DNA from: an uncultured Pelagibacteraceae bacterium
Lineage (GTDB): Bacteria > Pseudomonadota > Alphaproteobacteria > Pelagibacterales > Pelagibacteraceae
Direction: 5' to 3'
Length of the DNA: 64,000 nt
Assembly: GCA_902591185.1 (NCBI GenBank)
Contig: CACIZU010000001.1
Span: forward strand, 112,580 to 176,579
Shown: one piece after another, positions 25,227-63,986 of the stretch
Position numbering within the stretch: position 1 is the stretch's first letter
How the letters are laid out: every line of letters begins with the position of its first letter
Program-made: the position numbers and the translations under genes
The notes under the pieces: generated by a model
The model's database searches: none
Told to the model about the DNA's origin: nothing
The model's input: the letters and a program-made list of their open reading frames with translations, nothing else

Positions 25227-26293
25227 TTTTTTGAAATTAATCTTTGTCTTAGATAATCAATTGGATGTATGCTTCCATTAATATCACAATGCCAGTAAGT
25301 CCAACCATTACAGCTTTCAGCGCCTAAAATAGTTGCTGCAACTTTATGTATAGATCCTTCAGTTTGTTCATGTTTAATACTGCCATCAGCCATAATTCTT
25401 GCGGTAATTTTTTTCTTATTATCAAAAATATTAGTACCAGGTTTAATTATTCCAAGTTCAACTAAAGAACCAAAAGGTATTCGTGGTTTTGATCTATTGT
25501 TTTTAAGAGTGTCTAATAAATCGTCTTCAATAGGTTTAGTATTTTTTAATCTTTGTTCGGCAGCCTTGAAGTAATTTTTTTCTTTTTCAATTCCATAATA
25601 ATTTCTACCTAGTTTTTTTGCAACTGTTGCTGTAGTTCCTGATCCTAAGAATGGATCTAAAATCATGTCACCTTTATTTGATGATGCCAATAAAACTCTA
25701 TGAAGTAGAGATTCTGGTTTTTGTGTTGAATGTACTTTTTTACCATTTTTTTTAAGTCTTTCAGCACCACTACAAATTGGAAGATCCCAATTTGATCTCA
25801 TTTGCAGATCATCATTTAAACATTTTAATGATTGATAATTAAAAGTATATTTTGATTTTTCACTCTTTGATGCCCAAATTAAAGTTTCATGAGCATTCGT
25901 AAATCTTGTTCCTCTAAAGTTAGGCATTGGATTATTTTTGTTCCAAATAACATCATTTAAAATCCAGAAACCCAAGTTTTGAATAGCGGTTCCTACTCTA
26001 AAAATATTATGATAGCTACCAATGACCCAAATAGCTCCATCTTTTTTTAAAATTCTTTTGCATTCTGATAACCATTCATAAGTAAAGTCATCATATTTTT
26101 TAAAATTTTTAAATTGATCCCATTTATCATTAACTGCACTTACTTTAGATCTATCCGGCCTAGTTAGTTCACTTTTTAACTGTAAATTGTATGGAGGGTC
26201 TGCAAAAACTAAATCAAAGGTTTCGCTTGGGATTTTTTTTAGTTCCTCGAGACTGTTGCCGTTAATAATTTTGTTTTTAAATTCAGATTTCAT
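25223..26293 (-). CDS. ccrM: Adenine-specific DNA methyltransferase, CcrM type (GANTC)
   Basis: FADPPYNLQL catalytic motif, DPFLGSGTTATVAKKLGRNYYGIE, C-terminal domain (DGSIKHEQTEGSIHKVAATILGAESCNGWTYWH) characteristic of CcrM. Confidence 0.94.
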   Translation of the reverse strand: MKSEFKNKIINGNSLEELKKIPSETFDLVFADPPYNLQLKSELTRPDRSKVSAVNDKWDQFKNFKKYDDFTYEWLSECKRILKKDGAIWVIGSYHNIFRVGTAIQNLGFWILNDVIWNKNNPMPNFRGTRFTNAHETLIWASKSEKSKYTFNYQSLKCLNDDLQMRSNWDLPICSGAERLKKNGKKVHSTQKPESLLHRVLLASSNKGDMILDPFLGSGTTATVAKKLGRNYYGIEKEKNYFKAAEQRLKNTKPIEDDLLDTLKNNRSKPRIPFGSLVELGIIKPGTNIFDNKKKITARIMADGSIKHEQTEGSIHKVAATILGAESCNGWTYWHCDINGSIHPIDYLRQRLISKN

Positions 26294-26309
26294 TTATAAA
26301 AAATAATTA

Positions 26310-26358
26310 GACTCCAAATGGATTCTATGGTCAACCTGAGATTGAATTATTTGGATTC
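26310..26358. promoter_or_regulatory. Cluster of three GANTC sites (26310-26314, 26321-26325, 26354-26358) upstream of ccrM
   Basis: GACTC, GATTC, GATTC read directly; methylation motif of the downstream enzyme family. Confidence 0.45.
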
Positions 26359-62077: not shown

Positions 62078-63904
62078 GTGGAAAGAATAATTACTAAATC
62101 ATTTGCAAGATTAATGGGTCGTGGAACTCATAGAGGTTTTATAACTTATGAAGAGCTAAATAAATCTTTAGGAAAAAGAAATTTATCTAAAGAAAATTTG
62201 GCTCAAGCATTTATTCATATTTTGGATGAACATGTAACCTTAGTCGAAAAAAAATCTGATTATAAAGTTTTAAGAAAAAAAGAAAATTCTTCAAAAGAAG
62301 ATGGTAAGACAATTGAAAAAAGTGACGACCCTATTCGAATGTATTTACGTGAGATGGGTGGAGTTGAATTACTTTCAAGAGAAGGTGAAATTGCAATTGC
62401 CAAAAGAATAGAGGCAGGTAAAGATGTTATGTTAATTGCCCTTTCTCAAAGCCCAATAACTGCACAACAATTTTTTGAATGGAATGATCAACTTCAAAAA
62501 GATGAAATTTTAGTTAGAGAAATTATTGATATTGATACAAATTATATGGAGGATGAGACAACAGGCCCAAGTGCAAAACAAAAAAATGCAGGTGAAACAG
62601 ATAAAGAAGAAGGTTCTGGTGATAGTGATGAGGATGATTTTAATCCCACTCTTGCTGCAATGGAGAATGAGATTAAACCAAAAGTTTTAAAAACTGTTAG
62701 CACATTAACAAAAGAATATAATAAATTAATCAAATATCAAAAAGAAAAACTAGATTGTGTTTTAAATTCCAAAAATTTTTCACCTTCAAAAGAAAAAAAT
62801 TATGAAAAAATTGTTAATGATATTTTAGAAAATATTAAATCTCTTCAATTATCTCCGTCCGTTTTAGAAGAGCTTGTACAAAAACACTATATAGAGAATA
62901 AAAGAATTATATCACTAGAAGGTAATCTTTTAAGATTAGCGATGGATCATAAAATACCAAGAAATGAATTTATTAAATTTTATATAGGTAATGAAATTAA
63001 TCCAAATCTTAAGAAATTTTTAGATACAAATGCAGTTTGGAAACAGTTTTTTACTAAAAATAAAGATAAATTTAAAAATATTAGAGAAAGATTGATTGAA
63101 ATAAGTCATAAACTTGGAATCTCAGTTACTGACTTTAAAAAATTAGTAAGCAGAGTTCAAAAAGGTGAAAAAGAGTCTAGAATTGCAAAAAAAGAAATGG
63201 TTGAAGCCAATTTAAGATTAGTAATTTCAATTGCTAAAAAATACACAAATAGAGGTCTTCAGTTTTTAGACTTAATTCAAGAAGGAAATATTGGATTAAT
63301 GAAAGCGGTTGATAAATTTGAATATAGAAGAGGGTATAAATTTTCTACATATGCAACTTGGTGGATTAGACAAGCAATCACAAGATCAATTGCCGATCAA
63401 GCAAGAACTATTAGAATCCCAGTTCATATGATTGAAACAATTAATAAGATTGTAAGAACTCAAAGATTAATTTTAAGTGAATTTGGTAGAGAGGCTACAC
63501 CAGAAGAATTAGCGCAAAAATTAAGAATGCCACTTGATAAAGTCAGAAAAGTTTTAAAAATTTCTAAAGAACCTGTTTCATTAGAGAAGCCAGTTGGAGA
63601 TGAAGAAGACAGTAGTCTAGGAGATTTTATTGAAGATACAAAAGCTTTAGCTCCTTTAGAACAAGCTATTAAATCAAATCTTGGAGAAGCAACAACTAAA
63701 ATTTTATCAACTTTGACTCCTAGAGAGGAAAGAGTTTTAAGAATGAGATTTGGAGTTGGCATGAATACTGATCATACATTGGAAGAGGTAGGCCTTCAGT
63801 TTTCTGTGACCAGAGAGAGAATTAGACAGATTGAGGCAAAAGCTCTTAGAAAACTAAAACATCCAAGTAGATCTAAACAACTAAAAAGTTTCTTGGAAAG
63901 TTAA
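62078..63904 (+). CDS. rpoD: RNA polymerase primary sigma factor (sigma-70)
   Basis: [96 protein letters not shown]-terminal region 4 HTH; GTG start (ATG at 62114 possible). Confidence 0.98.
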
Positions 63905-63911
63905 TTTTACT

Positions 63912-63986
63912 GGGCCGTTAGCTCAATAGTAGAGTACTGCATTGACATTGCAGGGGTAGTTGGAGCGTAACCAACACGGCCCACCA
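63912..63986 (+). tRNA. tRNA-Val (anticodon GAC), CCA encoded, aberrant D- and T-loops
   Basis: Acceptor GGGCCGT/ACGGCCC, D stem GCTC/GAGT, anticodon arm CTGCA-TTGACAT-TGCAG, T stem GTTGG/CCAAC with loop AGCGTAA, discriminator A, CCA. Confidence 0.85.

Follow-up and report, generated by a model that had tools for sequence, protein, structure and literature searches.

A tRNA-Val(GAC) of a SAR11 bacterium with an apparent alternative elbow shared by further SAR11 tRNAs and by viral tRNAs

We describe a tRNA-Val(GAC) gene of a SAR11 bacterium that very probably encodes a working tRNA, decoding GUU and GUC and built with an alternative elbow, a view reached without expression, charging or structure data. 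The gene lies in the window, the whole stretch of 64,000 nucleotides from an uncultured Pelagibacteraceae bacterium that was analyzed. Two of the elbow contacts, G18-Psi55 and T54-A58, are taught as nearly universal features of tRNA, and they are the targets of TruB, TrmA-type and TrmI-type enzymes. On the best reading of the sequence, this corner of the molecule would be rebuilt in tRNA-Val(GAC) with alternative tertiary pairs, leaving no place for m5U54, Psi55 or m1A58; the geometry of A18/G55 and A54/U58 and the lack of these modifications in vivo are inferred. The case appears to be one instance of a recurrent alternative elbow with covarying pairs of its own, and not a peculiarity of a single gene.

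Structure of the tRNA-Val(GAC) gene

The gene scores 53.6 bits against the Rfam model RF00005 (gathering cut-off, 29), which meets the requirement for tRNA membership. Its acceptor (GGGCCGT/ACGGCCC), D (GCTC/GAGT), anticodon (CTGCA/TGCAG) and T (GTTGG/CCAAC) stems are all paired in a perfect cloverleaf that is also the minimum-energy fold; TA follows the 5' strand of the acceptor stem, a single A precedes the anticodon stem, and the 3' end reads ACCA (Table 1). An earlier note on this DNA had claimed paired stems, a normal anticodon loop and an encoded CCA, all of which were confirmed by the sequence, ARAGORN, Rfam and the fold, and the covariance-model score that it proposed to inspect is well above the cut-off. 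The tRNA starts 7 nucleotides past the rpoD stop codon (gap 63905-63911), from which we infer that the two genes are probably co-transcribed. In other SAR11 genera (L065-L067), rpoD is followed by a tRNA-Met gene, with no tRNA-Val between them.

Table 1 Features of the tRNA-Val(GAC) gene and other features of the window
Feature	Position in the window	Strand	Basis
rpoD (sigma-70)	62078..63904	+	ORF; same neighbor in most relatives
tRNA-Val(GAC) gene, CCA encoded	63912..63986	+	ARAGORN; Rfam RF00005; conserved in 235 SAR11 genomes
D-loop AATAGTA (A14 A15 U16 A18 G19 U20 A21), A18 instead of G18	63925..63931	+	sequence; near-invariant in 12 distinct copies
Anticodon GAC in the normal loop TTGACAT	63944..63946	+	sequence, ARAGORN; loop invariant in 12 distinct copies
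Variable loop GGGTA, A48 (normally Y48) facing A15	63954..63958	+	A48 invariant in 12 copies
T-loop AGCGTAA (A54 G55 C56 G57 U58 A59 A60)	63964..63970	+	54, 55, 56, 58 and 60 invariant, 57 purine, 59 covaries with 16
bablM sRNA (RF01784)	26290..26358	-	84.8 bits

The departures from the canonical elbow are G18>A, U55>G, U54>A, A58>U, Y60>A and Y48>A, and with A18 G19 and A54 G55 C56 G57 U58, the tRNA does not meet the criteria for that elbow (G18, G19 and U54 U55 C56 R57 A58). At the level of contacts, A18/G55 stands in for G18-U55 and A54/U58 for U54-A58, and position 60 carries an A. The exposed G19-C56 elbow pair can still form, since both of its nucleotides are retained. Together with complementary nucleotides at 16 and 59, these states satisfy the criteria for the alternative-elbow class. 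The non-canonical T-loop reported in the earlier note is evident in the sequence, and its point that neither m5U54 nor Psi55 could form without U54 stands, in that A54 and G55 are seen and the absence of modification in vivo is inferred. The same note went too far in stating that G18-G19 was lost from the D-loop, where G18 is replaced by A, but G19, like C56, is retained. Its proposal that both halves of the elbow have changed is supported by the joint occurrence of A18 and G55, but the G19-C56 half is intact, and the changes at positions 48, 58 and 60 had been missed.

Conservation and compensation in SAR11

Among the first 61 relatives compared, about two dozen copies from the same genus are 99-100% identical to the gene and five are 80-90% identical; divergent SAR11 copies have different stems and the same two loops. 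With up to three mismatches allowed, 235 of the 398 genomes of the order carry the tRNA pattern; six of these carriers come from g7 and g8, two further genera of the same family, and the sister family contributes none. Chance or a base-call error is ruled out by the identical or compensated copies in these 235 genomes, single-contig ones included.

We aligned 12 distinct versions of tRNA-Val(GAC) and counted 23 named pairs, that is, those of the cloverleaf, G19-C56 and 16-59. Every cell of this alignment is paired (276/276, 23/23 pairs in the 12 copies), and 12 of the 23 pairs, including one tertiary pair (16-59), show compensatory change on both sides. The observed pairing and compensation were matched by 0 of 500 shuffles, and slid controls were only 34-49% paired. 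Positions 18, 19, 54, 55, 56, 58 and 60 are unchanged in the 12 versions, and position 57 is a purine throughout; nine versions have U/A at 16/59 and three have A/U. U56 occurs in one g8 genome (G339). Judging from these alignments, the gene is not decaying. The comparison of SAR11 homologues suggested in the earlier note, made here on the 12 distinct versions, returned conserved loops and compensated stems, and the description of an unorthodox but functional tRNA free of decay is upheld as far as sequence evidence reaches, given also the lack of a second tRNA-Val(GAC) in a complete relative.

Probable decoding role and joint switching of the loops

The complete genome of this relative (G012; 1,343,202 bases) encodes 32 tRNAs, including a single tRNA-Val(GAC), which is the one with the odd loops, and one canonical tRNA-Val(UAC). 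No second tRNA-Val(GAC) was found among the 32; a canonical copy elsewhere in the genome, which the earlier note had named as a refutation, is therefore missing from this relative. The valine determinants A35, C36, A73 and G45 and the anticodon GAC are present, so that the sequence criterion for a decoding tRNA-Val is met, and the minor element G20 is absent (U20), the list of valine identity elements being that of PMC9976931. GUU and GUC account for 61% of the Val codons in the longer ORFs of the window, which makes a working GAC tRNA plausible as a main valine decoder, with charging and use on the ribosome inferred. In principle, tRNA-Val(UAC) could read all four Val codons, so codon coverage does not force the use of tRNA-Val(GAC).

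In the sister family, tRNA-Val(GAC) is canonical (AGTGGTA/TTCGATC). Two genomes of the window's genus (G081 and G082) carry a tRNA-Val(GAC) whose acceptor stem and D-stem are the same but whose loops are canonical (ACCGGTTA/TTCAATT and ACTGGTTA/TTCGATT), GG and TTC occurring together in place of the odd loops. The D- and T-loops thus switch together within a recognizable gene.

The same elbow in other SAR11 and alphaproteobacterial tRNAs

The sister family has the exact pair of loops, AATAGTA with AGCGTAA, in its tRNA-Thr(GGT), as do four genomes of another alphaproteobacterial family, and the window's genus has it in tRNA-His(GTG). Various SAR11 genomes contain a half version, A18 with U54 G55 C56 R57 A58, in Phe, His, Thr or Tyr tRNAs. 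Of 201 distinct SAR11 tRNAs, 169 have G/U at 18/55 and the other 32 have A/G, without exception (Fisher test, 7e-38, uncorrected for relatedness). Separately, tRNA-Thr(GGT) of L018, from the window's own genome, and of L458 has the T-loop GTCAGTA, that is, G54/G58 with G18 G19 U55 C56 kept, which by its sequence is another unusual closing pair.

Alternative elbows in viral tRNAs

A scan of IMG/VR for the exact loop pair matched at least 116 contigs, with at least 98 distinct viral tRNAs of about 20 isoacceptors and unrelated stems. Among the matches listed, the commonest isoacceptors are Gln, Met, Asp, Ile, Gly and Val, and in the 67 module tRNAs with an encoded CCA that were recovered there by our cloverleaf finder, the median identity outside the two loops is 0.45; one viral match is annotated as a tRNA-Met of Acinetobacter phage Ac42. 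The presence of the same loop pair on unrelated stems implies that the two loops make up a single tertiary unit, interchangeable with the canonical one.

For an unbiased survey, a purpose-written cloverleaf finder that is blind to the D- and T-loop sequences, requiring only U8, U33 and stem pairing, was applied to all viral loci; tRNAs matching any retrieval pattern were removed, and the rest were thinned to less than 85% identity, leaving 611 tRNAs. The p-values assume independent sequences, relatedness in the viral set having been reduced by the thinning, and the simple rule used to assign position 18 could misplace it in unusual D-loops. In this set, 18/55 is G/U in 433 tRNAs and A/G in 120, with nine exceptions (A/U, 5; G/G, 4; Fisher test, 1e-110), and 54/58 is U/A in 500, A/U in 51, G/G in 33 and A/A in 16. 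A60 accompanies A54/U58 or G54/G58 in 108 of 111 tRNAs, compared with 10 of 143 with U54/A58 (p = 2e-55). Within the A54/U58 class, tRNAs with 7-nucleotide D-loops have A/U at 16/59 in 19 cases, U/A in seven and other combinations in four (p = 2e-4). The 15/48 combination is less regular in this class: A15/C48 is the commonest, and A15/A48, the state in the window, is a minority.

Viral matches to a G18/G55 pattern carry no tRNA calls and mostly lack a proper cloverleaf; they were not counted as counter-evidence, and the unbiased survey was used instead. The classic phages T4 and T5 were rejected as precedents: A18/G55 was found in none of their tRNAs, nearly all of which have G18 G19 and TTC. 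Other viral loci (L170-L197, e.g., L175, L177, L184 and L194) contain tRNA-like elements without CCA that have A18/G55 loops and unusual anticodon arms; in five of these loci, Rfam gave no match above the cut-off at the tRNA-like elements. A further recurring viral element (L202-L238, e.g., L202, L204 and L213) resembles a tRNA D-arm at its start (TAGCTCAATGGTAGAGC) and has GTGCAAATC at its end, without forming a cloverleaf tRNA.

Comparison with known folds and a possible mechanism

The canonical bacterial elbow (G18-Psi55, G19-C56, T54-A58) shares with tRNA-Val(GAC) the cloverleaf, the 7-nucleotide loops, G19, C56, the purine at 57 and G53-C61. In contrast to it, tRNA-Val(GAC) has A/G at 18/55, A/U at 54/58, A60 and A48 and offers no site for m5U54, Psi55 or m1A58.

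In T-loops of the UGNRA type (type R1 lonepair triloops, found in riboswitches and rRNA), an outside A joins the second-position G to complete a composite GNRA fold (PMC2258182). A second-position G partnered by an A from outside the loop is common to both cases, the contact being inferred in tRNA-Val(GAC), and A18/G55 fits the composite-GNRA rule and covaries as that rule predicts. However, the loop of tRNA-Val(GAC) lies within a tRNA, and its closing pair is reversed to A54/U58, unlike the SAR11 Phe, His, Tyr and Thr versions, which keep U54-A58. The loop falls outside the UGNRA class (U1 G2 N3 R4 A5 and an outside A) because A and U occupy positions 1 and 5, even though G55 and A18 match and covary; by analogy, the likeness appears to be one of working only. 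By the same analogy, A18 would stack into the T-loop and form a sheared-type pair with G55, the geometry being inferred. Within the A54/U58 class, positions 16 and 59 covary across the two loops as U16-A59 or A16-U59. On this model, the L-shape would be maintained without m5U54, Psi55 and m1A58, and so would the G19-C56 face exposed to the ribosome, RNase P and ValRS, which is likewise an inference.

Partial precedents exist. In eukaryotic tRNA-Ala, A54 occurs with A48 and a purine at 60 (PMC7566577), the combination seen here; however, this tRNA (R15/A48, A54/A58) and the initiator tRNA (A54/A58) differ from tRNA-Val(GAC), which has U58, and A/G instead of G/U at 18/55. Like tRNA-Val(GAC), tRNA-Pyl is devoid of the GG and T-Psi-C motifs, but it is defined by a short D-loop, a longer anticodon stem and the lack of G19 and C56 (PMC7609411). 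With its ordinary cloverleaf, 7-nucleotide D-loop (5 nucleotides in tRNA-Pyl), 5-bp anticodon stem, G19 and C56, tRNA-Val(GAC) does not meet these criteria.

Alternative explanations

It is unlikely that the gene or its elbow entered SAR11 from a phage tRNA. Such an origin would be in line with the abundance of the loop pair in viral tRNAs and with the rpoD-tRNA-Met arrangement of other SAR11 genera. However, the tRNA has no match in 50,697 phage records, and the best identity among the viral tRNAs compared is 71%, to a tRNA-Val(UAC), on which grounds direct import from phage was rejected. Moreover, the canonical-loop Val genes of the same genus (L515 and L516) share the acceptor stem and D-stem, which favors a switch in place.

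Loss of TruB, the Psi55 synthase, could have freed positions 55 and 18 so that the elbow drifted, an explanation to which we give little credence. TruB (TIGR00431) was undetected in all 37 genomes of the genus and in the tested g8 and g9 genomes, compared with 21 of 24 sister-family genomes in which it was found; it was also found in g5, g6, g7 and g11. However, the TruB-bearing genus g7 has the odd tRNA-Val(GAC), and the sister family combines TruB with the exact loop pair in tRNA-Thr(GGT). Because TruB-bearing relatives have the same elbow, the loss is not needed and was rejected as a necessary cause, although it may have eased later switches.

A specialized tRNA diverted from translation, in the manner of the S. 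aureus cell-wall tRNA-Gly, is very improbable. The elbow change could weaken some contacts, and tRNA-Val(UAC) might cover decoding. The position 18 change is common to both tRNAs, but in the non-proteinogenic tRNA-Gly, 18 and 19 are both replaced, and the pairs A49-U65 and A51-U63, weak for EF-Tu, are present (PMC4052509), whereas tRNA-Val(GAC) keeps G19 and C56 and has G49-C65 and U51-A63. Furthermore, tRNA-Val(GAC) is present only once, and its elbow is shared with Thr, His and many viral isoacceptors. Finally, a decaying pseudo-tRNA with drifting loops, to which the off-consensus loops and an Rfam score among the lower ones of the genome's tRNAs might point, is next to impossible to reconcile with loops fixed over many species, compensated stems, the sole tRNA-Val(GAC) of the complete relative and the recurrence of the loop pair in unrelated tRNAs.

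Discussion

In our literature search, no description of the alternative-elbow class was found, with the limitation that subscription tRNA literature, including the D-/T-loop selection studies cited in PMC7912444, lay mostly outside the search. Alternative-elbow tRNAs often escape ARAGORN, with consequences for annotation: it called just 46 of 122 viral module copies among the matches listed and missed the SAR11 tRNA-Thr(GGT) and tRNA-His copies of the module.

We advance only tentatively, as a possibility short of an even chance, a general reading in which A18/G55, A54/U58 or G54/G58, A60 and 16-59 make up a second natural elbow, widespread among viral tRNAs and fixed in several host tRNAs of SAR11, that would support the L-shape without T-loop modifications and that may be favored because it frees the tRNA from host T-loop modifying enzymes or elbow-sensing quality control. 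The tRNAs described here provide ready natural test pairs for the role of the elbow and its modifications, as well as alternative tRNA scaffolds for engineering. In natural sequences from a very abundant bacterial group and in many viral tRNAs, the elbow pairs are exchangeable pair by pair; judging by this recurrence, the 'universal' corner of tRNA would have a second natural solution.
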